Origin: Bordetella parapertussis
Lineage (GTDB): Bacteria > Pseudomonadota > Gammaproteobacteria > Burkholderiales > Burkholderiaceae_B
Direction of reading: 5' to 3'
DNA: 20,441 nucleotides
NCBI GenBank assembly: GCA_945882005.1
Contig: CAMCWG010000018.1
Location: forward strand, 1 to 20,441
Under the pieces are notes generated by a model. It saw only the letters and a list, made by a program, of their open reading frames with translations. It made no database searches and was not told the origin of the DNA. The translations under genes and the position numbers were made by a program. Positions 6,885-20,441 of this stretch are shown here, in pieces. Within the stretch, counting starts at the first letter, position 1; each line of letters starts with the position of its first letter.

Positions 6885-6953
6885 TTGTAAATTCCAATCG
6901 AAGAATAGTGAATGACCGCACGACCAAATTGAGACAGCAATAAATGCCCAAGC

Positions 6954-7619
6954 TTAAGACTGAGGCTGCTTGGAAAACTTTGATGTCAATGCAGCTCTAA
7001 AAAAATTGACAACCGCGAATCCAACCTGCATGATAATTCCAAAGCAGATAATTCCAATTGCAAATAACAATAAACGCTGATCAATAGACTCTATCCGCAT
7101 CGCGTAACGCACCAGCGTTGCAACACCTTCCGTTACACCAATTGCGGCACCGGAAGCTGAAGACATAATCAATATGAAATACATTCGCATTAAGTTTGGG
7201 AGCAGTTGAAGCGCAGTAATAATCTGCCCGAGTCGCCACTGCCGAATCGATTCTAAAAAATTATCAAAGACGTATGCGACGGCATAAGGCAAGAGCGAGA
7301 GGACAACAATTGAAACATTGGATAAGGTCCAGTTTGATCCAGCAATGACAATTTGTCTTGGTAGCAGGTAAAGCAGACTAATCATCACAAGAAAAGTCGG
7401 CATTGCGCGAATCAACGCAATAAAGAATCCGATGATCTTGCCTACAAAACCACCTGCCAAACTAAACCCAACGAGTAAACCACCTATTAACAAGCTGAAA
7501 AGTAATGTTAGAGAAGCGATCTTGAAATTAACCAGCATCCCACTGCCAAGCGAGCCGAAAAAGCCTTGCGGAATAAAGCTGAGAATATCAGTCACGGATA
7601 GTCTCCGATTTAGGCTCAT
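6954..7619 (-). CDS. Amino-acid ABC permease-like membrane protein with shortened coupling loop
   Basis: A 221-residue protein from ATG 7619, which has GGAGAG upstream; it overlaps the fused permease gene by 32 bases. Residues 25-70 contain the first helices, and R-A-M-P-T-F at 71-76 matches the R-G-T-P motif of polar amino-acid permeases (HisMQ family). Normally GQ starts the EAA loop, with LP about 20 residues later; here GQIITALQLLPNLMR at 131-145 shows only about 8 residues between, so most of the helix that docks on the ATPase seems absent. The end (SSASGAAIGVTEGV) resembles the last conserved permease block. No ATPase gene is nearby. Transport may be altered or lost; that is inferred from eye alignment. 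Confidence 0.7.
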   Translation of the reverse strand: MSLNRRLSVTDILSFIPQGFFGSLGSGMLVNFKIASLTLLFSLLIGGLLVGFSLAGGFVGKIIGFFIALIRAMPTFLVMISLLYLLPRQIVIAGSNWTLSNVSIVVLSLLPYAVAYVFDNFLESIRQWRLGQIITALQLLPNLMRMYFILIMSSASGAAIGVTEGVATLVRYAMRIESIDQRLLLFAIGIICFGIIMQVGFAVVNFFRAALTSKFSKQPQS

Positions 7620-9300
7620 GTCTCGCCATCCACTCTCCTGCCTTACCACACAACCAAACGACCACAAAAACAATGCCCATATAAAACAGCATTAAAAAGA
7701 CATACGTCGCAAGCCGAGAGCCTGAAAAAGAACTGATATCAGTCATCGAAGTGAGTAATTCAGGTGCGCCGATAAAGCTTGCCGCAGGCAACGCCTTACT
7801 GGCGTTAACAAGAAAAGCTTGCAACTGAATATGTGAGCGACGCAGCGCTTCAACATAGAGTCCAACTGAGCGCTCAGGACTACTACCGCAGATACTTATG
7901 ACAGACTCCGAGATGGACTGACCAGCATTTGCGCCATTCATAAGGCCGATCACTAAGATACAAACAGCCAAGCCCAGGCCTACCGAATACGAGAAGATGG
8001 CCGTAACAAGAACAAGGCCAATTACCAACGCTAGAACAAAAGGGGTAGACTGAACCGCTATGACGATTAGGCTAGTTGGCCAGCGCAGAGCCCGGCTCGG
8101 TGAACTTAGCGCCCAACCCACAAGGCAAGCAATGATCAACGTGGCAGCTAACGCGCCGACGAGCAAAAGAATTGTGTATAGAACACCCGTCTTAAAAAGA
8201 GTCCACCCTGATACTGTAGTGAGCCACGGCAACGCAATGTCGACACCCGTCAGGTTTGAAGTAAAAACTTCAACCTCTTTAACGAAACCGCTGAACCATG
8301 TGGGCTTAAGAACGGTGTCGAGCGGTGGGAGTATGCACTGAGGGTTAGAATTGCCAACTGACCGATTACAGATATCCTGCGTCCAAGTTTTACGCTGGTC
8401 CTCAAGAAAATCGGGATTAATGTTATTGGCCCGTGCGAGCTCTAGCAGCGTGCCATCGCGATGCATAATTTGAAACGTCAGACTCAAAGCGAGCGCCAAG
8501 TCTTTTGCGTTATCTTTCGGAACAGCTGCACCCCAAGGTACGGGAGCAAAACGAAACTTTGCATCAAAGTTCTTTGCGAACTCCGGCTTACTGTAAAGCC
8601 CAGCAAAATAACTGTCGTCATGTGCCGCTAACTCACACACGCCGGATTCGAGCGCCTCTTGCAACTTAGCAGAACCGTCAAAAAGCATCAGACGAAGACC
8701 GTGACCGACCAAGCCAGCGTTTTGATAGGAACCAACCGTCACGCAGACGGTACGGCCAGTCAATCCACCCCAATCGACGGCTCGAATATTACGTTCGCCC
8801 ATGATTTCAGTCATGGATGCATAGTAATGAGGTCTGACAAAAGTAACCTGACTGTCGCGTTGTGTCGTGTGTCCCAAGGTCGAGAGAACAACATCTACGC
8901 GTTTCTCTCCTAGCGCACCAATTCGATTCGCTCCCGTGACTGCAACGAATATCGCTTCAACGCCTAATTTAGCGGCAATGCGTCTGGCAATATCCACTTC
9001 ATAACCAGACCACTTACCATCTTTCTCAAATCCGAACCCTAGATACCTTGCGTTCAGCCCGAAACGTATCCGCTTGTCGCATAGTACGGTGTGCAACAAA
9101 TCAGAATTTTCTAATTTGCAGTTACTGACAGCAGACGAGAGAAGGTTCTTTAACGCCTCATCCGGAGAGAGCGATTCTTGAGCCAACCCCGGTTTGCCCA
9201 AAGTCAGCAACACACTGAGAAGGAGAAGAATCCTACAAAACGATTTGGTTAGCGCAGTGATATACAAAATATGTGTTCGATTTGAGACTAGCGCAAGCAC
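7588..9300 (-). CDS. Fusion of periplasmic solute-binding protein family 3 and amino-acid permease
   Basis: A 570-residue protein from GTG 9300. Residues 15-40 look like a signal peptide or anchor (LLLLSVLLTLGKPGLA). Residues 65-310 are a family-3 binding domain: GFGFEKDGKWSGYEVDIARR, then TTQRDSQVTFVRPHYY and G-S-Y-Q near 190-193. Residues 365-552 are a permease domain with T-L-F-K-T-G, a Q-S-T-P motif at 417-420, several helices and G-A-P-E-L-L at 511-516. The EAA region (around VGLYVEALRRS, 479-489) is about 12 residues shorter than usual by eye. Binding/permease fusions are known in glutamine-type importers; the missing ATPase is odd. It starts 6 bases after the methyltransferase. Confidence 0.75.
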   Translation of the reverse strand: MLALVSNRTHILYITALTKSFCRILLLLSVLLTLGKPGLAQESLSPDEALKNLLSSAVSNCKLENSDLLHTVLCDKRIRFGLNARYLGFGFEKDGKWSGYEVDIARRIAAKLGVEAIFVAVTGANRIGALGEKRVDVVLSTLGHTTQRDSQVTFVRPHYYASMTEIMGERNIRAVDWGGLTGRTVCVTVGSYQNAGLVGHGLRLMLFDGSAKLQEALESGVCELAAHDDSYFAGLYSKPEFAKNFDAKFRFAPVPWGAAVPKDNAKDLALALSLTFQIMHRDGTLLELARANNINPDFLEDQRKTWTQDICNRSVGNSNPQCILPPLDTVLKPTWFSGFVKEVEVFTSNLTGVDIALPWLTTVSGWTLFKTGVLYTILLLVGALAATLIIACLVGWALSSPSRALRWPTSLIVIAVQSTPFVLALVIGLVLVTAIFSYSVGLGLAVCILVIGLMNGANAGQSISESVISICGSSPERSVGLYVEALRRSHIQLQAFLVNASKALPAASFIGAPELLTSMTDISSFSGSRLATYVFLMLFYMGIVFVVVWLCGKAGEWMARHEPKSETIRD

Positions 9301-9306
9301 GTCGGA

Positions 9307-9999
9307 TTATTTGAGACCACCGAAAACACGTCGGAACTCCACAATATGAACTTCGGCAAACACGTACTCGCCATAAGAAACGATCGACTTACCTACCCTG
9401 CCGGCAACAACCTGAGGAGCCAGTTTACTCAAGCGTTCCTCCGAATAAGTCAGCAACCTCGTCATGACAATTTTAGCCTCAAACCCAGAGGCCTGAAGTA
9501 TCGCGATCGTCTTGGCGACATCGATCGGGTCAAAGTGGGTAATTAACCCCCAGCCGTCCACCGTTAAATGCGCAGCAACCCCATTTAGAAACTGATCAAG
9601 CACCGCCCGTCCATCTGACCCCCCAAAACTCCAGGTCACGGGACGACCATCAGGCATCGGCTTTTCAAAGGGACCCTGGGGTAAGTTGGCCACGATGACA
9701 TCGAACACTCGATCAGGTAGTGCTGACCACATGTCTCCTGTGTGTAAATCTGCTATGTCTAGGTATCCCTCGGCACTCAGGGTTTGTGTACTGACGCCTA
9801 TTGCATCAGCCTCGATATCAACCCCACAGACGCGCTGGGCGCCCTCTTTTGCCAAGGCCGCCAGTACAACTCCGGATCCACAACCAATTTCTAGAGCGGA
9901 TTTGCCTTTAATGCGGGCGCTCTCCAGCCTAATCTGCTGAATGAGCATCGCTGTGTATTCACTAGGACGAAATGCTAAGGTGTTCTTCACTATCGACAT
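9307..9999 (-). CDS. SAM-dependent methyltransferase, PrmC/HemK-like class I
   Basis: A 230-residue class I methyltransferase. SAM-binding motif I is LEIGCGSGVVLAALA at 36-50, the acidic residue ending strand 2 is D61 (GVDIEADAI), and motif IV is A-N-L-P-Q at 104-108. The N-P-P-Y-type motif IV marks enzymes methylating amide or ring nitrogens, such as glutamine in release factors; here it is changed to NLPQ, so substrate choice may differ. FRPSEYT near the N-terminus resembles the approach to the SAM site in this group. It lacks the long helical N-terminal domain of PrmC. It lies between two binding-protein genes and may act on a small molecule or peptide. Confidence 0.75.
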   Translation of the reverse strand: MSIVKNTLAFRPSEYTAMLIQQIRLESARIKGKSALEIGCGSGVVLAALAKEGAQRVCGVDIEADAIGVSTQTLSAEGYLDIADLHTGDMWSALPDRVFDVIVANLPQGPFEKPMPDGRPVTWSFGGSDGRAVLDQFLNGVAAHLTVDGWGLITHFDPIDVAKTIAILQASGFEAKIVMTRLLTYSEERLSKLAPQVVAGRVGKSIVSYGEYVFAEVHIVEFRRVFGGLK

Positions 10000-10122: not shown

Positions 10123-10950
10123 TTACTTCACCGCTGGCATAGGCGCTGGCGCAGCGGCTGGCATTGGAACTGGCGCAACCGGCTGACTTTCGTTAAAAAT
10201 ACTCCGGTACTTCTTTAGAAGCATGAAATACTGATTTTTCTTACTAGCCTTTTCAATTTCTTGTCCGACCTTTTCTTTCAAAAGGGCAGCGCATTTGGAG
10301 CGTTTAGAAAAAGCAAAAAACGTATCTATGCGAAATGGATAAGTCGCCAAAACTTGAACTTTATCACCCAGATCGCGTCGGTATATTTCAGAGGACGCAG
10401 AGTCCTCATAGGCTAGGACATAGTCGACTTCTTGAGCTAACAGCCGCCGAAAAGACTCTTCAAGCCCAGGCGATCGCGTCAGGTTCAATTCTTTTTCAAC
10501 AAACGTCCCGAACGTGCTGTCGCCAAAGGTCACACCAGCCCCCGCGACCCCTTTTCTCCCTTTTAAATCTGCGTATTGGTTCAGCTGGAACTGATCACCT
10601 CGTCGAACTATCACATATAAAAATTGATACGCATAAGACGGGTATACATAAGTCAAGTAGCGAGAACGATCCGAAGACCAACCCGCAGAAATAATCATAT
10701 CTACTTCGCCCGACCGCACCGCAGCTAGGGACTGAGCCCAAGTGGGAAAACGCACGATTTTTACGTTTTTAACTCCCGCCGCCTTCAGCGTAGTCTGCGC
10801 CAGTTCGACCCCAGCGCCAATGAGTTCGCCATCGAGCACCCAAGAAGCAGGAGCATCTCCGGAAGGGCCTGAAATACTAACCGTGTCACAAGTCTGGGCC
10901 CATGCGGAGCTGACCAACAGGGTACCGATAATAAAGAAGATCGATCTCAT
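10123..10950 (-). CDS. Periplasmic solute-binding protein family 3 with a Pro/Ala/Met-rich tail
   Basis: A 275-residue protein with a clear signal peptide (MRSIFFIIGTLLVSSAWA, cleavage before Q19). The body follows the family-3 pattern of amino-acid receptors: GELIGAGVELAQTTLKAAGV, the segment VRSGEVDMIISAGWSSDRSRYL typical of the ligand-binding lobe, and LLAQEVDYVLAYEDSA in the second lobe. Residues 253-275 form an unusual tail with repeated P-M-P-A that family members normally lack. It is the first gene of the leftward operon and the second binding domain in it. It starts after an A-rich run without an obvious ribosome site. The ligand is unknown; an amino acid or peptide is a family-based guess. 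Confidence 0.85.
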   Translation of the reverse strand: MRSIFFIIGTLLVSSAWAQTCDTVSISGPSGDAPASWVLDGELIGAGVELAQTTLKAAGVKNVKIVRFPTWAQSLAAVRSGEVDMIISAGWSSDRSRYLTYVYPSYAYQFLYVIVRRGDQFQLNQYADLKGRKGVAGAGVTFGDSTFGTFVEKELNLTRSPGLEESFRRLLAQEVDYVLAYEDSASSEIYRRDLGDKVQVLATYPFRIDTFFAFSKRSKCAALLKEKVGQEIEKASKKNQYFMLLKKYRSIFNESQPVAPVPMPAAAPAPMPAVK

Positions 10951-11403: not shown

Positions 11404-11835
11404 GTGCACCAATGGTGCCAATGGGCGACCATGGCTGGATTTGTTCCCGTACCAGCGGTTGATTTGCTATCCATTTCGGCCGTTCAGGCAAAAATGGTAC
11501 ATAGCCTTTGTAAAATTTACGACAAGCGGTTTGAGCGCGATGCGATATCTTCAATTATCTCTGGTTTAGTCGGCGGCAGCCTGACCGGCCTAGTATCAGC
11601 AGGATTAGCTTTCACGCTAATTAAAAACATACCTGTCGTTGGCACAACCATCTCAACACTTACGCTTCCCGCCGTCGCTTTCGGGGCAACCCACGCGCTG
11701 GGAGCGGTTTTAATTCAGCATTTTGAGAACGACCTAGAAATCTCAGAGCTTTCAGTAAAAGAGGTTGAGCAGTACTTCGTCGATCAGTTCGAGAAAGGTA
11801 AAGCTCTCTTTCACAAAAAGAAATTAGCTGATTGA
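11404..11835 (+). CDS. DUF697 family membrane protein, N-terminally shortened
   Basis: A 143-residue protein from GTG 11404. The DUF697 core is clear: MAGFVPVPAVDLLSISAVQA, K-M-V-H-S-L-C-K-I-Y-D, a glycine-rich hydrophobic stretch (IISGLVGGSLTGLVSAGLAF), then IKNIPVVGTTISTLTLPAVA and GAVLIQHFE. DUF697 proteins are small, glycine-rich inner-membrane-associated proteins of unclear role, often linked to GTPases (YcjF type). It is a paralogue of the DUF697 protein at 17959-18570, which has about 50 more N-terminal residues. The GTG start has no ribosome site and cuts into conserved sequence. Its stop is one base from the thioesterase ATG, so the two are coupled. Confidence 0.7.
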   Translation: MHQWCQWATMAGFVPVPAVDLLSISAVQAKMVHSLCKIYDKRFERDAISSIISGLVGGSLTGLVSAGLAFTLIKNIPVVGTTISTLTLPAVAFGATHALGAVLIQHFENDLEISELSVKEVEQYFVDQFEKGKALFHKKKLAD

Positions 11836-11836
11836 A

Positions 11837-12589
11837 ATGCGCACGGTCACCAGTCCATGGGTGATACGCTCTGCCCCACAGCCGCATGCAAAAAAACGTT
11901 TGTTCTGCATTCCCTTTGCCGGAGGCGGAGCCTCTGCATATCGAAAATGGGCTAACGCGCTAGGACCAAGCATCGAAGTTTGTCCAATTCAGTTACCCGG
12001 CAGAGAGAATCGGTTGCTCGAGCCTGCTTATGATGACTGCCAAGCACTCACCGATGCCTTGTTATCGGCATTACGCCCGTTTTTAGACAAGCCATACTCA
12101 ATTTACGGTCACAGCATGGGCGCATTGCTTGCCTTTGAACTAGCGCGCCAGATAGAAGAGGTGAGTGATCAAATAGTCGGGCCTGAGCGAGTCTTCGTAG
12201 CAGCCCATAGAGCTGCGCACCTGCCTCTACAACGCCTTCCTATGGCTGACCTACCTCAAGAGGCCTTGATAGCGAAGCTTAACGAATATGGGGGATTTTC
12301 GAGCGAGGCGCTAAACAGTCCGGAGCTAATGGAGCTTTTACTACCCACGATTCGTGCAGACCTTAAGCTATGCGATACGTACCATTACGAACAAAAAAAA
12401 CCATTACGATGCCCACTCGAGGTCATCATAGGCGCCCTCGATCATCAAACTTCAACTGAGACCACGAACCCATGGGCCCTGCAAACTGCGGAGCCAACAA
12501 AGATCCACACTATAAATGGGGGACATTTTTTCTTGAACACTCACCTCGAGCAAGTATTACAAATAGTCCGCGCAGGAATGCTTGATTAG
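11837..12589 (+). CDS. Type II thioesterase (GrsT/RifR family, alpha/beta hydrolase)
   Basis: A 250-residue editing thioesterase. The start of the fold, LFCIPFAGGGASAYRKWA at 22-39, and the block IQLPGRENRL at 51-60 are diagnostic of stand-alone thioesterases of nonribosomal peptide and polyketide clusters. The catalytic triad is S93 (GHSMGA), D202 (GALDHQ) and H230 (GGHFFL). The enzyme frees carrier proteins blocked by wrong acyl or aminoacyl groups. No synthetase or carrier lies in the window, but an MbtH-like gene and a cyclic-peptide exporter at the right edge point to one nearby. It is 1 base after the DUF697 gene and converges with the lipoprotein gene at a shared terminator. Confidence 0.9.
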   Translation: MRTVTSPWVIRSAPQPHAKKRLFCIPFAGGGASAYRKWANALGPSIEVCPIQLPGRENRLLEPAYDDCQALTDALLSALRPFLDKPYSIYGHSMGALLAFELARQIEEVSDQIVGPERVFVAAHRAAHLPLQRLPMADLPQEALIAKLNEYGGFSSEALNSPELMELLLPTIRADLKLCDTYHYEQKKPLRCPLEVIIGALDHQTSTETTNPWALQTAEPTKIHTINGGHFFLNTHLEQVLQIVRAGMLD

Positions 12590-12652: not shown

Positions 12653-13951
12653 TTACTTAACCAAAACCGAAGGTGACGGCGGGATTGACCCTGCAATTTT
12701 GTTGAGCGTCAGCAGTTGAGAGAGCAGTACCATGACGTCTCTCGTGAAGCTTCCATCGCCAACTGGCAATGAGTAAGTGTCCCCGCGATAGCTAAGCGAA
12801 GTGAACGAATTGGAGAGTCGTTGATTCTTTTGCACTACAAATAACGGAACCGGTGGGTAGTCGGCAATGTTAACGTTACCAGCGCCACTTAGTAAATCAG
12901 GATTAAAAATCTTGACGACCGTGGGCTTCTCTGCGTTTTGCATCGAGACGATATCGCCCAAGAAGTCAAAGACGTTGCGTGTGGAACGAAGCTTGATATT
13001 GATCAACAGATTTTTTTGCGTACTATCCTGACTACCCTGCAATAGTTTGGCTAATTCGGTTGCAGTGCGACTTGCCACCTGTCGCTTGAACTGTTGTTGA
13101 CAGTACATCGAAGGAGATAAAGACTTTCCGAAGAGGACTTCGCCGTCCGTCCTGTTAAGGCAGAGCCTTGACTGTTGCATCAGTCGAATAAGACGGAACT
13201 TTTTAGGACGTCCCGGAGTGACGACCTCGTCAACGGTAACACCCGATGCGATTGCTGACGCGAACATTCCCATCGACGCGCGCATCGTTGCCTCATCCAT
13301 TTCAGGCCCCATGGGCATCTTGAATGGAACCTGCTCGACGGTTAGACCGGCCGCCACCAAGATGTAAAGCGCACGTTGAAACTGCTCATATTCCTTGCTA
13401 CCTGGATCGTTAACAAAACTCAGCATCACGTCTTTGTTTTCATTAACGATATCAATAGATTCGATAACTAGCGAGTACAAAACTGACTTCGGAGCTGCCT
13501 GGTTAGCAGTCAAAAAGCCTACGATCTGAGGCTCAATCGGCGACAGGAAAGGCTTCATAAATGTGGCGTTATCCAACGAAGACTGCGTAAAGGTGTAACC
13601 ACCACTCACGTTCATCGATACGTTAGGAGCGTAGTTTGCTAAACCTTGCGCACCAGCCCAAGGCTGAAAAAATCCTGCAACGGAGCCTGGGTCGGCACCA
13701 TAAACGACTCCAGACATTCCCGCACTCGCGCCAACGTTGCCGGTTCCCATAATCGAAGGGATATCCAAGAAACTGACTGGCATTTTTTGAGATGCGCGTA
13801 CGATGTTGATTAAGATGTTGTCGTTACTGTAAGACTCAACCACTTCACGATACGCGGACGACATACTGCGAAAGGTCATCGAGTTCATTGACCCACAACC
13901 AGCTAATCCCAACAGCAAAGTCAAAAGACCTGCAAAATAAACGCGACGCAT
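12653..13951 (-). CDS. Lipoprotein of unknown function
   Basis: A 432-residue protein from ATG 13951, preferred over TTG 13957 because GGAG lies 8 bases ahead. The N-terminus is a lipoprotein signal (MRRVYFAGLLTLLLGLAGC) with lipid-bearing C19; the S at position 20 after C-G suggests outer-membrane sorting is allowed. Near the mature N-terminus is SYSNDNILINIVRASQKMP, a pattern I associate with a poorly characterised group of large proteobacterial lipoproteins, followed by a glycine/serine-rich stretch (GTGNVGASAGMSGVVYG). No catalytic motif is seen. It is monocistronic or follows the two-helix peptide at 14024-14233 and ends at a strong terminator. Envelope role near a peptide exporter is inference. 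Confidence 0.8.
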   Translation of the reverse strand: MRRVYFAGLLTLLLGLAGCGSMNSMTFRSMSSAYREVVESYSNDNILINIVRASQKMPVSFLDIPSIMGTGNVGASAGMSGVVYGADPGSVAGFFQPWAGAQGLANYAPNVSMNVSGGYTFTQSSLDNATFMKPFLSPIEPQIVGFLTANQAAPKSVLYSLVIESIDIVNENKDVMLSFVNDPGSKEYEQFQRALYILVAAGLTVEQVPFKMPMGPEMDEATMRASMGMFASAIASGVTVDEVVTPGRPKKFRLIRLMQQSRLCLNRTDGEVLFGKSLSPSMYCQQQFKRQVASRTATELAKLLQGSQDSTQKNLLINIKLRSTRNVFDFLGDIVSMQNAEKPTVVKIFNPDLLSGAGNVNIADYPPVPLFVVQKNQRLSNSFTSLSYRGDTYSLPVGDGSFTRDVMVLLSQLLTLNKIAGSIPPSPSVLVK

Positions 13952-14023
13952 TATCAATGCTCCAAAATTATTTCAGCAAAAAATTAAAATGTAAGTCCGC
14001 TTCCAACGACGATCACAATGTAG

Positions 14024-14233
14024 TCACGCTAAAAACTTCGTAACAAACCAAAAACCTAGTATGGCCGCAGCGCCTATAAATACCACGCGCAAAATAAAAC
14101 CAAATAGAGTCGCTAACACGCTCACTTTTTTACCGGCTGCAACTTGCTGCTTGTGTCGGTATAAAGAAAACATAATGAAGCCGCCCAGCAACGCTCCAAC
14201 CAGCAAAATCTTGATAACAACAATGGCAGTCAT
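14024..14233 (-). CDS. Small two-helix membrane protein
   Basis: A 69-residue protein with a good ribosome site (GAGGTAA 5 bases ahead of ATG 14233). Helix one covers about residues 4-25 (VVIKILLVGALLGGFIMFSL), then a basic loop YRHKQQVAAGKK, then helix two at 38-66 (FGFILRVVFIGAAAILGFWF). No family is recognised. It is divergent from the proline-rich secreted protein and upstream of the lipoprotein gene, separated by 72 bases. The 191 bases to 14424 must hold both divergent promoters, but no convincing -35/-10 pair was found. Confidence 0.65.
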   Translation of the reverse strand: MTAIVVIKILLVGALLGGFIMFSLYRHKQQVAAGKKVSVLATLFGFILRVVFIGAAAILGFWFVTKFLA

Positions 14234-14424
14234 TTATTACCTCGGTGCGAGTCTGACGAAACTATTAACTGAGTTGACCCGTTAAGTGTTCAGCGTAGCT
14301 TGGACAGTGGAAGCTATGGTATCGGTGAGTTCTTTGATATCATACAAGCATCGTGAGATTTCACACAAGACATCCGCATTCAATATCAACAACTTCGTTG
14401 AAACAAAATCTAAGGATAAAAAGA

Positions 14425-15333
14425 GTGATCGTAAAAAAAACACTACTTGCACTCCTTACCTTGAGCAGTTTCCTAGCTGTATCACAGCCCTCTGCACAAC
14501 CCGCTCCCTCTGGCCCCCCGGCTGCACCGCCTTCTGCAGCGCCCTCTGCGCCGCCGTCTGGCCCGCCGGGGGGATCGACACCACCCGGTGGTGTCGCACA
14601 GCCCACCGCTGGCACGCCACCTGCTTCAGGTAGTGCGCCACCAGAAAAAAAATCCTCTCAAATCCTCGCGCCACAAAGAACCGGGCTCGTATGCTCAATA
14701 TTTGTGGGCAACTTCAGCTTAGCTGCACGTGGGATCCGTCTTACACAGTACTCTACGCTGGGCTTGGTACAAGATTGCGATGAAGATCATTTTAATCGCC
14801 TCACTACCACATCAATAGAGGCGCAGTTCAGAGCCGTACAGCAGCCGTTGTTCGTCATACGTGGGGGCGCACATCGCTACCTAATGGATGTGAACCTCGC
14901 CACACTTCCAAAACCATTTGTCCGCGTCGGCAACTTGATGCTGTCACCTGTTGGGTACATTGACATAAACTTCCGCGACGCTATTGCGAATAAAGGCTTA
15001 CAGCAAGGAAGCGTTGTGGCGAGTGAATACAAACCCTTTAAGTTAACAAGTCCCATACACTATATTTGGAACATCGGTCAGCCAGTCCACCGCCTTGTCA
15101 CACCCGAAGGAGATCGCTACGTGATGTTCGGTTACACGAAAAGGGTGATTGAGAATGTCAATACAAATAATCTCGCTCTAATCGGCCCATTGCTAAACCC
15201 ACCAGTGGGCTGGAAGTATGAGAGCTATCTTCTTGACCGTACACTAACCATCAAGGCAGAGCCTAGCAATAGTTTTACTCTGCAAATTGTGTTTGACGAT
15301 GCCTACAACATGTACGTTCAAACAGACGATTAA
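14425..15333 (+). CDS. Secreted protein with proline-rich linker, unknown function
   Basis: A 302-residue protein from GTG 14425, chosen because AAGGA lies 8 bases ahead and a signal peptide starts there (VKKTLLALLTLSSFLAVS). Residues 21-75 are almost only P, A, S, G and T, a flexible linker such as those that cross peptidoglycan or tether a domain. The folded part, about 85-302, contains two cysteines (LVCS and QDCDE) that could form a disulfide, and aromatic-rich segments such as FVIRGGAHRYLMDVN and YVMFGYTKRVIEN. I do not recognise this domain. It converges with the SPFH gene, with 16 bases between. Confidence 0.75.
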   Translation: MIVKKTLLALLTLSSFLAVSQPSAQPAPSGPPAAPPSAAPSAPPSGPPGGSTPPGGVAQPTAGTPPASGSAPPEKKSSQILAPQRTGLVCSIFVGNFSLAARGIRLTQYSTLGLVQDCDEDHFNRLTTTSIEAQFRAVQQPLFVIRGGAHRYLMDVNLATLPKPFVRVGNLMLSPVGYIDINFRDAIANKGLQQGSVVASEYKPFKLTSPIHYIWNIGQPVHRLVTPEGDRYVMFGYTKRVIENVNTNNLALIGPLLNPPVGWKYESYLLDRTLTIKAEPSNSFTLQIVFDDAYNMYVQTDD

Positions 15334-15349
15334 AAACTATCGCGGGGAC

Positions 15350-16261
15350 TTACTTTAGGACCTCACTACCGCCCATAATTAATGGCAGGCCAGAAGATCC
15401 CGACCCGAAAATTAACACTTTGCTGTTGTTCGAACTCGCTAAGTTCGCGCTCGCTTCTATCCCTTTGTAGCGCAAGAAGTTCTCTGTAAGACCACTCTCC
15501 GCGATGGATTGGAAGTCACGGATGCCAGCAGCCTCGATTCGCTTCCTCTCGGCCTCAAGCTTTTCTGTCACGATGCGGTATTGATACGCCTCGGACTTTA
15601 CATGTTCCACTGCCTTGTTTTGTAACGCAGCTTCTAATTCAGACGGAAAGCTAAACTTAATCACCTGAACATCACTGATCGTGAGCAAACGCACGTCCGT
15701 CAAACCGGTAGGCGTAATTTTCTTAAGAATGACATTTGTCGTGTCAAGAGATATTGTCTGACTAATTTTTTGTATATCTTTCGTAAAGGCGTCGACCGAA
15801 GAATATTGAGCCACCGACTCTCGTGCGGAAGATTCAATAATCGGCAGAATGACTTTTTCGTAATAGTCTGGTCCAACAAATTTGTGCAGCAATGGGAGGT
15901 TAAACGGATAGATGACGTACTGGAAAGACAGTGTCATTTTTGACTTCAACCGATCTGATGTCAACACTTCAATATCCGTCGTTTTTTGCTGAACCTTAGC
16001 ATCGTAAATCGTCATGGTGTTAAACGGCCAGGTTACCTGCAGACCCTCTTTGTATACTTCATCTAAATCCGTACCAGTCCCTAATCGCTTATACAGAATA
16101 CCCAAATTACCGGCAGGGATAATGTGAACAGAGTACGGCCAGAAGGCGACGACAACACCCAAGGTCAACATCACCAAAACGACTATAGAAACCGCGTGCG
16201 ATCGCAAAAACGCAATATAGGCCAGAAGCAAGCCTCGAAAGTACCCCGAAAATCTACTCAT
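15350..16261 (-). CDS. SPFH/prohibitin (Band 7) domain membrane protein
   Basis: A 303-residue protein with one N-terminal membrane helix (about 22-42, SIVVLVMLTLGVVVAF) and a Band 7 domain: IIPAGNLGILYKRLG, EGLQVTWPFNTMTIYDAKVQ, then SFQYVIYP and ESSARESVAQYS. Around 215-260 a charged helical stretch (EAYQYRIVTEKLEAERKRIE) should form the coiled coil that drives ring or cage assembly. The C-terminus ends in a glycine/serine-rich segment. SPFH proteins scaffold membrane microdomains and large rings around membrane enzymes. It is the last gene of the mbtH-parA-exporter operon, 14 bases after the exporter, which suggests a scaffold for export or assembly (inference). Confidence 0.85.
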   Translation of the reverse strand: MSRFSGYFRGLLLAYIAFLRSHAVSIVVLVMLTLGVVVAFWPYSVHIIPAGNLGILYKRLGTGTDLDEVYKEGLQVTWPFNTMTIYDAKVQQKTTDIEVLTSDRLKSKMTLSFQYVIYPFNLPLLHKFVGPDYYEKVILPIIESSARESVAQYSSVDAFTKDIQKISQTISLDTTNVILKKITPTGLTDVRLLTISDVQVIKFSFPSELEAALQNKAVEHVKSEAYQYRIVTEKLEAERKRIEAAGIRDFQSIAESGLTENFLRYKGIEASANLASSNNSKVLIFGSGSSGLPLIMGGSEVLK

Positions 16262-16275
16262 AGTAGGTTGCCCAA

Positions 16276-17913
16276 TTAATCAAACTTCACGAGCTTGCCG
16301 TGATCGATCATTAGCGAATGATCTGCTAAATGGAAATAGTGATCATCATGCGTAATAGCAATCACTATTTTGTTCATTGCACGTAACTCAGGAATAATCT
16401 TTTCATAAAAGAACTTACGGAACTCGGGATCCTGATCCGACGCCCACTCATCCAAAATGATGATAGGCCGTCTCTCCATTATCGAGACAATAAGCGCTAT
16501 CCGTTTTTTCTGTCCTGTAGATAGGTTCAAATCGCTGAAGGTGTGATTCATGAACTTAATTCTTTCAGGAAGCTCTAGCTTTTTCAACCACTCCTCGACC
16601 TCTTCTTCGGTCGCGTCATACATACCGTAGAGCTTTCTAAATAAATGAAAATCGCTATAAATCGCAGAGAATAAATCACGATACGCTTGAGAATGCGCCG
16701 CGTCGATCTCCGTACCATTCAGATAAATCCGCCCGGAATCGGGGGCTATTAAGCCAGTCAAAATCCTGATAAACGAGGTTTTGCCAGATCCATTACCACC
16801 TCGAACGAAATAAACGTTACCCGCTTCGAACTGACAACTAATCGGACCCAAGACAAAAGGCGAAACTCCGGACTTACCCGCAAACCGATAGGTAACATTT
16901 TCAACTGCAATCTTTTGAACAGTTGGCTCGATATACTCGCTCTCTGCCGCTGTCGGTTTGTTAATTTTCTCTAACTCTTGCATGAAGCGATTCACTTCCT
17001 CTGCAGCCGTGTTGGCCTGAGAAAGCAAAGGCAGTGACGTGATGACACCCGTCAAGGAGCCTGCGATAAACAGCACAGTTGTCGCGACAGATACAACGTT
17101 ACTACTGAAGTCCGACGCAAGCACGGGGACTACAAATATCGTCGCACCAACTAGAACGTAAATCATGACTTGAATGGAGGCAAAGCCATTCGACAAGTGC
17201 ACGAGCGCTGAGGACTTTACTTGTGCCACCTGACGTGAGCTAGCGATAATGTCACTGCTGATATCAAACGCTCGGGCCGAGTTCATCTTTATCTCTTTGA
17301 AACCCGAGAGAAAGTCAGAGATTTGGTCGGCCGCCCGCCCCTCCTCCGCCCAAGCTTCTGTCAACATACCATGCGTTGTCGTGAAGCTCTGGGAAAAGTA
17401 CACAATCACCGCAAGACCAAAAATGAGTGTGACTAATCCCGCCACAAAAGACATAAAGAATAAATACGTGATCGAGAAACACAACATCGCTGCGGCCTGA
17501 CAGGTCGGCACAAACATCGTCGCCCCCTGACTGATCGTAAGCGTATCGCGACTCAAAATGGTCAATATATGTGGGGGACCTATTTTCTGCAGCGTCAAGA
17601 GGTCCGTCTTGAGCACTTCACCCATCACTCGCATCCGAATTCGATGGATCAGCGTCTGTGTGGCAGTAATGCTTTCTCTATTGTTGACACGCAACAACAC
17701 GGCGTAACAGATTAATAGCGGAACGAAAACAAAAAATGCCCACAAGGGAGTTTCATGTTCCGCGACGCGCGCGGCAGAATAATTCACAAGTGCAATCAAG
17801 GCAGTGCTGGACAAGCCGGCCAGCGCTGCGACAGAGATAATTCGACGCAGACTCAGACCGCTGTACTGCTGTACTAGCTTCACCAACTCTGACATCTGAC
17901 GACCACTACTCAT
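16276..17913 (-). CDS. Cyclic peptide export ABC transporter (PvdE/SyrD-like)
   Basis: A 545-residue half-transporter with fused membrane and ATPase parts. Helices lie at about 25-80, 132-175 and 245-298. The ATPase has Walker A GGNGSGKT at 372-379, signature LSTGQKKR at 464-471, Walker B IIILDE at 484-489 followed by W-A-S-D-Q-D-P, and the switch histidine H522 (THDDHYF). The LDEWASDQDPEFRKFFYE stretch is typical of the cyclic peptide transporter family (PvdE, SyrD), which moves peptide siderophores or lipopeptides across the inner membrane. It probably works as a homodimer. Its place between DUF697 and SPFH genes and downstream of mbtH supports a nonribosomal peptide product. Confidence 0.9.
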   Translation of the reverse strand: MSSGRQMSELVKLVQQYSGLSLRRIISVAALAGLSSTALIALVNYSAARVAEHETPLWAFFVFVPLLICYAVLLRVNNRESITATQTLIHRIRMRVMGEVLKTDLLTLQKIGPPHILTILSRDTLTISQGATMFVPTCQAAAMLCFSITYLFFMSFVAGLVTLIFGLAVIVYFSQSFTTTHGMLTEAWAEEGRAADQISDFLSGFKEIKMNSARAFDISSDIIASSRQVAQVKSSALVHLSNGFASIQVMIYVLVGATIFVVPVLASDFSSNVVSVATTVLFIAGSLTGVITSLPLLSQANTAAEEVNRFMQELEKINKPTAAESEYIEPTVQKIAVENVTYRFAGKSGVSPFVLGPISCQFEAGNVYFVRGGNGSGKTSFIRILTGLIAPDSGRIYLNGTEIDAAHSQAYRDLFSAIYSDFHLFRKLYGMYDATEEEVEEWLKKLELPERIKFMNHTFSDLNLSTGQKKRIALIVSIMERRPIIILDEWASDQDPEFRKFFYEKIIPELRAMNKIVIAITHDDHYFHLADHSLMIDHGKLVKFD

Positions 17914-17958
17914 TTTTTCAATCCATTCAATCGTGATTCACCCCAACCCTCGACATAT

Positions 17959-18570
17959 CTATGTCGCCGACGGAGCGGTAGGTGACACGACACCCTCCAT
18001 TTTATTGAACATAGTTTTAGCCTTGAGAAGCTGCTCGTGATAACTGGCCTTCAACGCTTCGGCAGACATTGCCATCAAGGTACCATTCGATTCAAAGTGA
18101 CGCACAAACACAGCCCCAATGGCATATGTAGTGGCATAAGACAACGCAGGCTGAGTAATTGCACCAAGCGTCGAACCGACTATTGGAATATGCTTGATTA
18201 AAGCTCCAGACAACGCCGCAGATGACACCGTTGTGACGCCGCCACCAGCCAACCCAGACAGAATCGCACGAACCTGCCTTTGCTTAAATGGAACGTCGTA
18301 AACTTTACAAAGATCGTAGACCATCTTGATCTGGAGCCCTGAAATCGTTACCAGATCCAGGAATGGAACTGGAATAAACCCAGCTACCATTCCCCATTGA
18401 GACCAGTTTTTTACAATTCGATCAGCCAATAACCGTTGAAAATCTTTTTCAGATAAGGACGCTGTCGTTACTAATGCGGCGCCATGCTTATATTCGGCTT
18501 CAAACTGCTGGTTTGCGGCATCGCTGCTCGGAGCACTAGATGATTTCTTCGATTCAGTCATAACAGTCAC
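17959..18570 (-). CDS. DUF697 family membrane protein
   Basis: A 203-residue protein with AGGTGA 6 bases ahead of ATG 18570. Residues 1-40 are polar and low complexity (SSSAPSSDAANQQ). The DUF697 part runs from 41: DFQRLLADRIVKNWSQWGMV, GFIPVPFLDLVTISGLQIK, YDLCKVYDVPF, the glycine-rich ILSGLAGGGVTTVSSAALSG, IKHIPIVGSTLGAITQPALS and GAVFVRHFE. A short Ala/Ser/Pro tail ends it. It is a full-length paralogue of the broken copy at 11404-11835. Role unknown; the amphipathic, glycine-packed core suggests a membrane-embedded oligomer. It is mid-operon between the disordered protein and the exporter. Confidence 0.8.
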   Translation of the reverse strand: MTVMTESKKSSSAPSSDAANQQFEAEYKHGAALVTTASLSEKDFQRLLADRIVKNWSQWGMVAGFIPVPFLDLVTISGLQIKMVYDLCKVYDVPFKQRQVRAILSGLAGGGVTTVSSAALSGALIKHIPIVGSTLGAITQPALSYATTYAIGAVFVRHFESNGTLMAMSAEALKASYHEQLLKAKTMFNKMEGVVSPTAPSAT

Positions 18571-18600
18571 CTATTTAATGAACTACAAGTCAATACACTT

Positions 18601-18627
18601 GAGCCAACCTTGCCTAGGTAAGGGCTC
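18601..18627 (-). other. Intergenic imperfect hairpin within the operon
   Basis: GAGCC at 18601-18605 can pair with GGCTC at 18623-18627, with CCTT/AAGG and a central CCTAGG inside. It lies in the 76-base gap between the disordered-tail gene and the DUF697 gene. No T run follows on the minus strand, so it looks more like an mRNA processing or stability element than a terminator. Confidence 0.3.
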
Positions 18628-18646
18628 ACCAAAACACAAAGATTAA

Positions 18647-19528
18647 CTAGGGCGACGGTGCATGCACCACTCGCTTAATATATTCAATGCCTTTTGAATC
18701 AAGCAACACGTATTTGTGCTCCCCCGAAGGTTGCCGCGACAAAAAAATAGAATGCTTGCGTGTTTTGAGCAGAGAGGCCGCCACAAGACCAAGCGGACCG
18801 CCGATCGCAAATCCAGTCAAGGCGAGTGGCAAAAAATTCGCCTCCGGTTGATCAACAGGTCCCTCCAGATGCATCAGGGAAACAAAATTTCCATCCGCTT
18901 CGTAGAAGCCATAAACATCAAGTTGAGGGCCGCGAACGATCTCATGCGCACCTAACACCTTCCCATCTCGCACCCGAACTGAAGGCTTGCGATACAACCA
19001 GTCAAAATAGGCCTTGCCTTGGTCAGCTCCGGTAGATTGATTTTCTTTTTCAGCCGCGGGCGGAACGTCATGAACCTCCTCAGTCGCAGAGGGGCTAAGA
19101 TCTGCCGGCTGCTTAACTTTGGGCTGCTTCTCTACAGGAGGCCTCCGGGCGGCCACGTCGCCCGCTTTCGGATCATTACTACCATTTGCGATGGAGGACG
19201 TGTCGCTAACAGTTACCTTGACGCTCGATTTAGATGTTTTTTTCGGTGCTTGTTCAGCAGGAACTTTTGCGGCGATCGCCTTATCGGTTTTTACTTTTTC
19301 ATTATTTTTTTTAGTCACGACGGGCTGCAACTCCACTGCGACTATGGGCTGCGGGACCTTGGTTGCTGGTTTAGCTTTGGGCACTGGCTTAGCCCGACTC
19401 GCAACACTATTTTCCGTCGCAGACTCCGCAGATGAACTCGCCAACAAACCTGTTCGTTTTGTTGGTCTAGACTCGCTAACTGCGAGTGGATTAATTTTGA
19501 TTGTTTTCTTTGAACGCGTAGTGACCAT
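18647..19528 (-). CDS. Protein with long disordered basic N-terminus and membrane-inserting C-terminal domain; candidate ParA adaptor
   Basis: A 293-residue protein with a good ribosome site (GGAAGGA, 7 bases before ATG 19528), starting 2 bases after parA. Residues 1-170 are Lys/Pro/Ala/Ser-rich and almost surely disordered; basic residues near the start (TTRSKKTIKINP, RPTKRT) could touch DNA or ParA. Residues 171-293 are folded, with FDWLYRKPSVRVRDGKVLG, VYGFYEADGNFVSLMHLEG and YVLLDSKGIEYIKRVVHA. Inside lies a glycine-rich hydrophobic stretch at 232-254 (LPLALTGFAIGGPLGLVA). No family is recognised. ParA-type ATPases that position cargo usually have an adjacent adaptor with a short basic N-terminus; this protein fits the position and composition, but that is inference. 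Confidence 0.75.
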   Translation of the reverse strand: MVTTRSKKTIKINPLAVSESRPTKRTGLLASSSAESATENSVASRAKPVPKAKPATKVPQPIVAVELQPVVTKKNNEKVKTDKAIAAKVPAEQAPKKTSKSSVKVTVSDTSSIANGSNDPKAGDVAARRPPVEKQPKVKQPADLSPSATEEVHDVPPAAEKENQSTGADQGKAYFDWLYRKPSVRVRDGKVLGAHEIVRGPQLDVYGFYEADGNFVSLMHLEGPVDQPEANFLPLALTGFAIGGPLGLVAASLLKTRKHSIFLSRQPSGEHKYVLLDSKGIEYIKRVVHAPSP

Positions 19529-19530
19529 AT

Positions 19531-20292
19531 TTATTCCTTCCGACGCTGAATGACTTCTTTTGCAAGTGAGCGATAGTCAACCGAAGCTACGCAATTCTGA
19601 TCGTATTCAATAACTGGCATTGCATGGGAAGGGGCCTCCGCCAAACGAATATTTTCCCTAATCACAGTGGAGAGAACCTGAGTCCCGAATCGTTCTGTCA
19701 GTAGTTCCAATACTTCTTTGGAATGCTTGGTTCGCGCATCAACGCGAGAGGCAAGAAAACCCAAAATTTCAAGCTCAGGATTCAATACCTCTTGAATCTC
19801 AGAGACCAGCGCCATGAGTTGTGCAACACCAGAGAGAGTAAGCACATGCGTCGTGACTGGAATGAGCAACTCCTTCGAGGCGACCAATGCGTTAAGCGTT
19901 ACAACCCCTAAAGTCGGTGGCGTATCGATCAGCAAGTAATCCCAATGCGTAACATCTAGCTTTGACAGACGCCGCTTCAAGATTGAATCAATCGCTAACT
20001 TTCCAGCAAGCGCTTTTTCGACATTAGCAAGGTCTTGGCTAGCTGCAATGACCCCAACATTTGGCGTACCGGAGTTGCCAATCAATCCATCCAAGGCCTG
20101 TGTACCCGTCAGTAGCCTAAAGGCTCCATCAACTGGCCCGGAGGCATTTAGCCAATGCGTTGCGTTACCTTGAGGGTCTAAGTCCACCACCAAAACACGA
20201 AGCTTTTTCTCCGCAAGCGCCGCCGCCAAATTCACAACGGTGGTTGTCTTGGCGCAACCACCTTTCTGATTGGCAACAGCGATTGTTCTCAT
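19531..20292 (-). CDS. parA: ParA/Soj-type ATPase
   Basis: A 253-residue ParA without an N-terminal HTH, so the short Soj/McdA type. The deviant Walker A is KGGCAKTT at 10-17, with the signature lysine K10 and the A in place of the usual G before the second lysine. Walker A' is VVDLDPQGN and Walker B is LLIDTPPTLG. The C-terminal half keeps R-E-N-I-R-L-A-E-A-P-S-H-A. These ATPases dimerise on ATP, bind the nucleoid and move DNA, protein complexes or organelles. No ParB gene or parS site is visible beside it; instead the neighbours are mbtH (10 bases upstream) and the disordered-tail protein. AGGTG precedes the ATG. Confidence 0.9.
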   Translation of the reverse strand: MRTIAVANQKGGCAKTTTVVNLAAALAEKKLRVLVVDLDPQGNATHWLNASGPVDGAFRLLTGTQALDGLIGNSGTPNVGVIAASQDLANVEKALAGKLAIDSILKRRLSKLDVTHWDYLLIDTPPTLGVVTLNALVASKELLIPVTTHVLTLSGVAQLMALVSEIQEVLNPELEILGFLASRVDARTKHSKEVLELLTERFGTQVLSTVIRENIRLAEAPSHAMPVIEYDQNCVASVDYRSLAKEVIQRRKE

Positions 20293-20302
20293 CTATCTAC
20301 AC

Positions 20303-20441
20303 CTATTTCGTAGCCGCAGCCATCGCTTTGCGCAAGCTGGCCGGCCGCATATCAGTCCAGTGCTGATCAATATACTGGGTGACTTCACCTTTCGTGCCCG
20401 CAAAGCCCTGATCGTGCCATCCCGCTGGGATTGGCTTTTTC
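20303..20441 (-). CDS. mbtH: MbtH-like protein, C-terminal part (runs off the window)
   Basis: The frame entering from the right edge gives 45 residues before TAG at 20303-20305. It reads PAGWHDQGFAGTKGEVTQYI, then HWTDMRPASLRKAM, which matches the MbtH signature (P-A-G-W, G-x-K-x-x-x-x-x-Y-I and W-T-D-M-R-P-x-S-L-R). MbtH proteins bind adenylation domains of nonribosomal peptide synthetases and make them soluble or active. The usual C-L before Y-I is T-Q here. The gene starts beyond the window. It is followed by parA after 10 bases, so it heads this part of the operon or follows synthetase genes further right. Confidence 0.85.
   Translation of the reverse strand, partial: KKPIPAGWHDQGFAGTKGEVTQYIDQHWTDMRPASLRKAMAAATK

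Follow-up and report, generated by a model that had tools for sequence, protein, structure and literature searches.

The known cargoes of ParA/MinD ATPases include chromosomes, plasmids, carboxysomes, chemoreceptor arrays and flagella. In McdA/McdB and other ParA/MinD cargo systems, the genome has an additional ParA whose gene neighbours one for a partner protein; these partners are diverse and have a basic, disordered N-terminus, and the cargo genes lie close by (PMC12204374; PMC10241942). ParA partners are described as working through charged or basic, disordered N-termini (PMC10241942), and the first 20 residues of McdB as both necessary and sufficient for binding to its ParA-type ATPase, with K7 being critical (PMC12204374). 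The same layout is found in the window, the 20,441-nucleotide stretch of Bordetella parapertussis DNA analysed here, where the putative cargo genes, as opposed to those of McdAB, encode a nonribosomal-peptide exporter, an SPFH protein and a DUF697 protein, and where the putative ParA partner, or adaptor, would correspond to McdB. ParA-ParB chromosome segregation shares with this locus a Soj-type ATPase, and ParB in the same genomes begins with a basic-then-hydrophobic layout (e.g. MVTKKPKGLGRGLEALL) similar to that of the adaptor's N-terminal tag; however, the operon partner has no match in Pfam, and hence no ParB domain was recognised in it, and the operon ParA groups apart from chromosomal ParA. 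An example from the peptide side is a Thalassobaculum NRPS/PKS cluster, described in one genome, in which an exporter and a prohibitin lie beside the synthetase and the prohibitin may, according to the authors, interact with synthetases, whereas no DUF697, ParA partner pair or tag is described in the available part of that paper (PMC12016528). Another is the Pseudomonas siderosome, a membrane-associated synthetase assembly for which the exporter PvdE has been discussed as a possible companion and PvdL and PvdA with regard to anchoring, and for which the accessible sections report no ParA, DUF697 or SPFH genes (PMC11172790). A literature search, with bioRxiv preprints and most subscription journals outside its coverage, found neither a ParA pair nor DUF697 nor the tag described together with peptide synthetases, and nothing useful on flotillin with synthetases or on the didemnin plasmid. 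The exporter-prohibitin neighbourhood appears to have been noted once before, while ParA, DUF697 and the tag appear to be undescribed in this setting.

As judged from its sequence, the operon probably combines a ParA/partner pair with an export module for nonribosomal peptides. All six genes lie on the minus strand in the order MbtH, ParA, a protein with a disordered N-terminus, DUF697, exporter and SPFH, with intergenic gaps of 10, 2, 76, 45 and 14 bases from MbtH towards SPFH, and these coordinates and the family matches bear out the one-strand gene set with gaps of 2-76 bases given in the preliminary description. The mbtH gene is represented by its 3' end (20303..20440; 45 codons and a stop at 20303-20305, translation ending IPAGWHDQGFAGTKGEVTQYIDQHWTDMRPASL), with the 5' end beyond the window; the last 45 residues present in the window reach 20.4 bits with Pfam MbtH against a cut-off of 27, and the complete mbtH of the relative L009 scores 65.2 bits. 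The cyclic-peptide export ABC transporter (16276..17913, minus strand), with membrane part and ATPase in a single chain, had been recognised correctly, since it scores 320.5 bits with TIGR01194, above the curated cut-off of 286.2; we take this family to be that of the PvdE/SyrD-type exporters. In a tree, it falls outside a group of 15 other Burkholderiales exporters (support 82/60) and is placed among exporters whose neighbours include SPFH and DUF697. The SPFH/prohibitin-family protein (15350..16261, minus strand) matches Band_7 at 70.5 bits against a cut-off of 23.6 and has a single predicted N-terminal membrane segment (hydropathy maximum 2.67, 19-residue stretch starting at residue 23), and it is on this family match and predicted segment that a membrane microdomain housing peptide assembly would rest. 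The DUF697 protein (17959..18570, minus strand; 203 aa, PF05128 38.7 bits), untagged in the window, has 38 homologues and a mostly helical structure model of low confidence (mean pLDDT 66), for which a search against the PDB gave no match at E<=0.001.

Outside the operon, the window holds a second DUF697 gene (11404..11835, plus strand; PF05128 34.1 bits), on which the preliminary description was silent, beside a gene for a type II thioesterase (11837..12589, plus strand; PF00975 156.4 bits), a usual nonribosomal-peptide accessory; this pair is kept in L006, L008 and L009. Two further genes encode a lipoprotein-like protein (12653..13957, minus strand; lipobox judged by eye) and a proline-rich, probably secreted protein (14353..15333, plus strand), neither with a Pfam match at E<=0.01. 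Both accompany the module, with homologues in L005 (partial for the lipoprotein-like protein), L006, L008, L009, L013, L018 and L019 among the eight loci compared, and the lipoprotein-like protein may be an envelope partner.

The DUF697, exporter and SPFH genes stand in this order and on the same strand in 37 of 80 genome loci from several phyla, gathered with DUF697 alone as the selection criterion, and because the ordered module recurs in this way a chance or local accident is excluded. Downstream DNA of 5 kb or more was available for 55 loci, of which 30 have both exporter and SPFH within 6 kb. Of the 42 loci in which both exporter and SPFH lie no more than 6 kb from DUF697, 17 have a ParA in the same interval and the other 25, some of which end at contig edges, have none there, so that the export module can function without ParA. 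Of the neighbours that had been placed beside the exporter, DUF697 and SPFH are conserved in relatives as a module and ParA in part. The same gene grouping has been found on plasmids of Tistrella, Skermanella, Azospirillum and a Rhodobacteraceae, and a search of plasmid DNA with the window sequence gave no match.

The gene following parA encodes the putative ParA partner and cargo adaptor (18647..19528, minus strand; 293 aa), which has 11 homologues in a database of 5.8 billion proteins. Its N-terminal tag is followed by a K/P/A-rich disordered linker of ~160 residues and, at the C-terminus, by a small domain that contains a hydrophobic stretch. In its AlphaFold model, which covers the window's adaptor and is of low confidence, residues 1-180 are mostly below pLDDT 50, while residues 183-289 form strands and helices mostly at 50-70; the protein had been described as having a disordered tail, but the disordered part is its N-terminal ~180 of 293 residues, with a low-confidence domain following. 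The tag core (adaptor codons 8-15, KTIKINPL; 19484..19507, minus strand) fits a pattern of K/R and then T[I/V/L/M]xxNPL, often followed by D-D/E-I. This core gave 19 matches (one in a duplicate contig) among 7,705 ORFs, every one at the start of the gene following ParA, and two S-variants bring the aligned adaptors to 20, with T, N, P and L invariant in 20 of 20. Where type-I ParA is taken to mean an identity of 52% or more to the ParA of the window, the tag starts the gene after it in 24 of 25 distinct loci. It is carried by two different kinds of protein body, and the one locus without it is L156, in which no adaptor follows ParA and a tagged protein is encoded elsewhere in the genome. The 24 loci include L159 and three of three new loci found through ParA alone, which came to light after the pattern had been recognised. 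The varying synonymous codons of the tag led to rejection of DNA-level conservation as its source.

In most relatives, the tagged gene after ParA is DUF697 itself, and a profile comparison between adaptor and DUF697 aligned the 17-residue tag as the sole stretch, with a low probability of 4.2, so that the two bodies are taken to be unrelated. Proteins of 161 aa in L013 and L014 were considered as a third body; these align weakly with the adaptor C-terminal domain, and the body types are therefore counted as two. Ten DUF697 proteins of 391-435 aa, from nine genomes of a 399-genome scan, apparently have another architecture and were left out. ParA-like loci lacking the tag are L046, where an untagged DUF697 follows, L052, L068 and L078, and in all of these ParA is at most 29% identical to that of the window. 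Among DUF697 ORFs of ParA-less loci, the tag pattern was found in 0 of 65, missing a variant in L017, and a looser pattern found 2 of 65, namely the L017 variant and, in L056, a dissimilar match located 33 residues inside a long frame. The tagged DUF697 of L017 lies away from ParA in a genome that retains a type-I ParA beside exporter and SPFH.

The parA gene (19531..20292, minus strand; AAA_31 158.3 bits) encodes a second ParA-type ATPase with a deviant Walker A motif, KGGCAKT, which is present in 25 of 25 distinct type-I ParA proteins, the window's counted. Operon-type (53-80% identical) and chromosomal-type (36-39%) ParA are both present in six of six searched genomes and split from one another in a tree (support 99/92), and on these sequence grounds the operon ParA is a second copy, separate from the chromosomal ParA that accompanies ParB. 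Copy number in six further genomes is not always two, with four matches in G164 and one each in G162 and G165. The linkage of parA, adaptor and exporter is kept down to 53-58% ParA identity. The conserved module and the separate ParA with its tagged partner therefore lend strong sequence support to the earlier suggestion that peptide assembly and export is positioned by dedicated genes.

The proposed mechanism, which is considered somewhat more likely than not, has two units. The first would be a widespread export module, made up of a TIGR01194 exporter, an adjacent membrane SPFH protein and a helical DUF697 protein, that may serve nonribosomal-peptide or polyketide/peptide synthetases; the second would be a ParA/partner positioning pair, added in a Burkholderiales lineage. 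The first ~17 residues of the adaptor are predicted to bind ParA and trigger its ATPase, with the long disordered linker joining this tag to a cargo-facing body, which would be the small hydrophobic-stretch domain in the window and DUF697 in most relatives. If the adaptor works as ParB, McdB and similar partners do, ParA carrying ATP would be located on the nucleoid. An adaptor attached through its body to the exporter/SPFH/DUF697 assembly would then track ParA gradients by its tag, and in this way the export site, with any synthetase docked on it, would be spread along the cell and divided between daughter cells. We infer that the tag binds ParA, that ParA binds the nucleoid, that the exporter/SPFH assembly is the cargo and that synthetases dock on it, and the cargo itself would be an SPFH-membrane peptide factory. 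The full proposal is put forward tentatively, at somewhat less than even chances: ParA may move a nonribosomal-peptide assembly-and-export site in an SPFH membrane domain through a transferable TIxxNPL tag carried by either adaptor (DUF697 or the small-domain protein), and an RRR[L/M]Y tag, found so far in one locus each in Verrucomicrobiota, Lentisphaerota and Parachitinimonas, may do likewise for a second ParA lineage.

A different, rather unlikely reading is that the operon is an export-assembly unit only, in which SPFH and DUF697 have a stabilising or quality-control role for the exporter, and ParA and the adaptor form a local scaffold or a polar-targeting ATPase, with no cargo movement over the nucleoid. 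BcsQ in cellulose secretion is a model for such an ATPase, and the window's ParA exceeds the BcsQ profile cut-off (39.2 vs 21.3 bits), as would suit this reading together with the many DUF697-exporter-SPFH loci devoid of ParA; however, the BcsQ score is far under that for AAA_31, the best solved-structure matches of ParA are of the segregation/Soj type (1wcv, 'segregation protein', being the best), the partner is tagged like ParB/McdB-type partners and inspection by eye shows no MinD-like membrane-targeting end on the window's ParA.

A Pfam search of 20 of the window's frames revealed no synthetase, and none was found in the fetched DNA of the relatives L006, L008, L009 and L010, and in L008-L010, which have enough upstream DNA, mbtH is preceded by ordinary chromosomal genes, presumably dihydrodipicolinate-synthase-like and BamC-like as judged by reading. 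In Zwartia hollandica, 0 of 11 Condensation-domain matches lie on the operon's 552-kb contig. The expectation of a synthetase in the flanks is therefore partly contradicted in this clade (L006 and L008-L010) but holds for other relatives, with a synthetase beside the operon in L018, L019, L020, L032 and L170. The exporter-DUF697-SPFH module as such often lies close to synthetases. Condensation domains occur in 33 of 39 searched genomes with an exporter and SPFH locus, compared with 31 of 150 genomes of the order; of the six genomes with no such domain, one has a polyketide synthase instead (L029), and several are incomplete MAGs. In the window's clade, the operon would act in trans on synthetases encoded elsewhere. 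Elsewhere, DUF697 lies within 6 kb of synthetases with no exporter or SPFH gene there (L035, L044 and L056), and parA directly follows a synthetase gene in G331, as might be expected if the cargo were cytosolic, with DUF697 holding a synthetase/MbtH complex and SPFH and exporter being independent neighbours; this is improbable, however, as exporter and SPFH adjoin tagged DUF697 more constantly and the split pair of G167 leaves ParA beside them. Soj-type ParA genes are common on mobile elements and the operon ParA is of this type, but a ParA pair that is a relic plasmid- or island-partition system, beside the exporter by history, is highly improbable and was rejected on a partner that is not a recognisable ParB (DUF697 in relatives), the separate parAB in six of six genomes and the persistent linkage of parA, adaptor and exporter.

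If the proposed movement by ParA is true, a natural-product factory as ParA cargo would be a new cargo class, and the siderosome idea of membrane-bound synthetase assemblies would gain dedicated genes open to deletion and labelling. The short peptide tag would predict which protein joins cargo to motor, and a testable role is offered for DUF697 and for the SPFH proteins beside peptide exporters. The operon suggests that some bacteria actively control where in the cell their machinery for making and exporting peptides is located.

In the window, six genes of a nonribosomal peptide accessory operon were placed by the preliminary description on one strand, 2-76 bases apart, and this arrangement was borne out (minus strand, 15350-20440), as were, by profile matches, the family assignments of the SPFH protein, the exporter, the DUF697 protein and ParA. 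The mbtH gene is present as described, but only its last 45 residues lie in the window and their match to the MbtH profile is below the cut-off; complete copies occupy the same place in relatives (Pfam was run on one of them). The disorder ascribed to a tail of the 293-residue protein encoded after ParA (the adaptor, a putative ParA partner) is predicted to be N-terminal instead. Beyond the operon lie genes for two envelope-type proteins (12653-15333), whose homologues accompany it in most of the 8 loci compared, and a second DUF697 gene with a type II thioesterase, assigned by Pfam (11404-12589). The minus strand at 5538-9999 consecutively encodes an ATP-grasp protein, a possible membrane permease, a protein that combines a solute-binding domain with apparent membrane segments, and a methyltransferase; parts of this stretch, taken together with the binding-protein gene at 10123-10950, recur downstream of the operon in three other genome loci (L006, L008 and L009).

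The ParA of this operon is distinct from the chromosomal ParA encoded beside ParB. Both an operon-type ParA (53-80% identical to that of the window) and a ParA beside ParB (36-39%) are found in 6/6 genomes, with no third match at E<=1e-12, while six further genomes, some of them incomplete MAGs, hold two copies (G010, G011, G167), four (G164, two of operon type) or one (G162, G165). A tree containing four distant rows with very long branches splits the operon ParA from the chromosomal ParA (support 99/92). The operon group, termed type I, comprises 25 distinct ParA, each at least 52% identical to that of the window and all carrying KGGCAKT; the remaining ParA-like genes encountered are at most 29% identical.

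The gene after a type-I ParA opens with a few residues including K/R, followed by T[I/V/L/M]xxNPL and often then by D-D/E-I. In 7,705 frames, some of them overlapping, which total 1.02 million residues, [KRN]T[ILMV]xxNPL occurs 19 times, one of them in a second copy of L025, and in 19/19 cases it marks the start of the gene after type-I ParA (the L009 frame as listed opens 22 residues ahead of its likely start); in two further adaptors, S replaces the first K. Among 20 distinct adaptors, the T, N, P and L of this tag are invariant, and mean majority identity is 0.63 in the tag vs 0.26 in the linker. The codons of the tag vary synonymously, and selection therefore acts on the protein. Two unlike bodies carry the tag: DUF697, and the small domain seen in the window's adaptor, which takes a short form in L013 and L014. 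The adaptor linkers of L029 (9191-10456), L030 (9293-10456) and L036 (7495-8649) are rich in short K-V-A/E/D-type repeats and differ in length between close relatives.

After this pattern had been seen, it was met again at L159, the contig start of another genome, where ParA is followed by a tagged frame. A search of 200 genomes from the family with ParA yielded eight matches, five in genomes already known and three new (G593, G607, G628); in 3/3 of the latter a tagged DUF697 lies directly after ParA, followed by the exporter, and then by SPFH in the two whose contig extends that far. Altogether, the tag lies immediately after 24/25 type-I ParA (20 adaptors, L159 and the three new loci), a count that excludes a further match cut by a contig end (G164:C71). 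The exception, L156, adjoins the exporter and SPFH with no adaptor between, and its genome carries on a separate contig the only tagged protein among 65 DUF697 frames of loci without ParA (L017), where the tagged DUF697 adjoins a response regulator in place of ParA.

Outside type I, the ParA-like loci L046 and L052 have no tag; in L046, DUF697 directly follows the ParA-like gene. A second tag class, resting on three sequences only, is RRR[L/M]Y near the start of a DUF697 directly after a different ParA, in Lentisphaerota, Verrucomicrobiota and Parachitinimonas (L068 13620-14222, L078 515-1159 and L154 1531-2193, the last encoding a protein identical to that of Parachitinimonas caeni). It is missing from a Chitinimonas lacunae DUF697 protein (P0052, seen as protein alone) that is 70% identical to that of L154 over 65% of its length. 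In L160 (5238-13999, genome G331), a ParA gene in the same orientation as a synthetase gene abuts or overlaps the end of the latter and is followed by DUF697 with this second tag.

The conservation of DUF697 and SPFH beside the exporter, on which the preliminary description made its reading depend, was upheld in a set selected by DUF697 alignment scan with one genome per species (best 80 of 134 confirmed loci), in which partner genes were called by a home-made profile per gene run on all open reading frames. In 37/80 loci, the DUF697 gene is succeeded by the exporter gene and then by SPFH, all with the same orientation; where at least 5 kb of downstream DNA is available (n=55), the exporter lies within 6 kb in 34, SPFH in 31 and both in 30, and no partner gene lies within 6 kb in 17/80. 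Loci with exporter and SPFH span Alpha-, Beta- and Gammaproteobacteria, Myxococcota, Campylobacterota, Bacteroidota, Lentisphaerota, Verrucomicrobiota and further groups. The organisms are given under their labels, several of which are doubtful for MAGs ('Bordetella parapertussis' is one example). Two modules may occur per genome (L015 and L016 vs L036 and L030, same assemblies), one with ParA and tagged DUF697, the other with an additional SPFH gene and a DUF697 that lacks the tag; the DNA examined around the latter module showed no ParA. DUF697 relatives also occur in L046, L053 and L079 (Desulfamplus) and L063 and L065 (Nitrospirae), which are magnetotactic lineages.

The expectation of a synthetase in the flanks held in part: a synthetase-type frame (>35 bits) lies anywhere in the locus in 24/80 loci, but none adjoins the operon in the window's own clade, which counts against the link. 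The former figure includes AMP-loading polyketide synthases (two Pfam-confirmed) and one hybrid, and is probably low because many contigs end nearby. On annotated plasmids of Skermanella and Azospirillum, genes named non-ribosomal peptide synthetase adjoin those for the exporter, prohibitin and DUF697; on a Rhodobacteraceae plasmid, the neighbours of these three are a 7-kb gene and one for a phosphopantetheinyl transferase, and the annotation names no synthetase there. On a Tistrella plasmid, whose record is unannotated, the module was called from open frames. Condensation domains were sought at genome level for 52 loci, most of them picked for module genes or a synthetase at the locus (most of the 28 left out lack exporter and SPFH), and are present in 11/12 and 34/40 genomes of two sets. 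They occur in 33/39 searched genomes whose locus has exporter and SPFH vs 31/150 of the order of the window's relatives (the reference G001 is one of the 31), a rough comparison because the module genomes were hand-picked and drawn from many phyla. In L008-L010, ordinary chromosomal genes lie upstream of the operon, and in the genome of L005, the window's closest relative, a synthetase is on a different contig. In Zwartia hollandica, all 11 Condensation matches are on contigs other than the operon's 552-kb contig, and the single TIGR01194 exporter (E<=1e-60, best 8 candidates scored) is that of the operon, so that its export in trans for synthetases coded elsewhere is plausible.

Among 150 genomes of the order, 13 carry exporters, 17 in total, and flanks of 1.5 kb show an SPFH neighbour for two of these, in Z. 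hollandica and in G145, where wider flanks hold two DUF697 genes and a synthetase around the exporter. The other 15, which include two (L091 and L101) whose contig ends within one flank, cluster to the exclusion of the module exporters (support 82/60, 80% of bootstrap trees, 65 rows) in a tree without four loci (duplicates or cut copies) and exporter frames <480 residues or <300 bits, G145 being labelled by hand from its wider flanks; deep branching is poorly supported, and the claim is therefore limited to this separation.

Partners of ParA-type ATPases bind via basic, disordered N-termini, according to excerpts of two studies (PMC12204374, PMC10241942), and in McdB the first 20 residues are necessary and sufficient for binding, with K7 critical (PMC12204374, excerpt). 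The N-terminal layout of ParB of the same genomes is similar to that of the tagged protein. On the simplest reading, the tagged protein would be the partner of type-I ParA, and its body, either DUF697 itself or a domain that acts together with it, would sit on the exporter/SPFH assembly. For Pseudomonas, synthetase assemblies bound to the membrane have been proposed, with the anchoring of PvdL stated as open (PMC11172790). In a single Thalassobaculum NRPS/PKS cluster, the gene after a cyclic-peptide exporter codes for a prohibitin, which may, the authors suggest, interact with the synthetases (PMC12016528). This precedent leaves the ParA and tag results unaffected; no description of the ParA pair, DUF697 or the tag was found among the hits of a literature search or in excerpts of PMC12016528. 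The operon is rated as a form of ParA/partner positioning whose putative cargo is of a new kind, and not as a new kind of machine.
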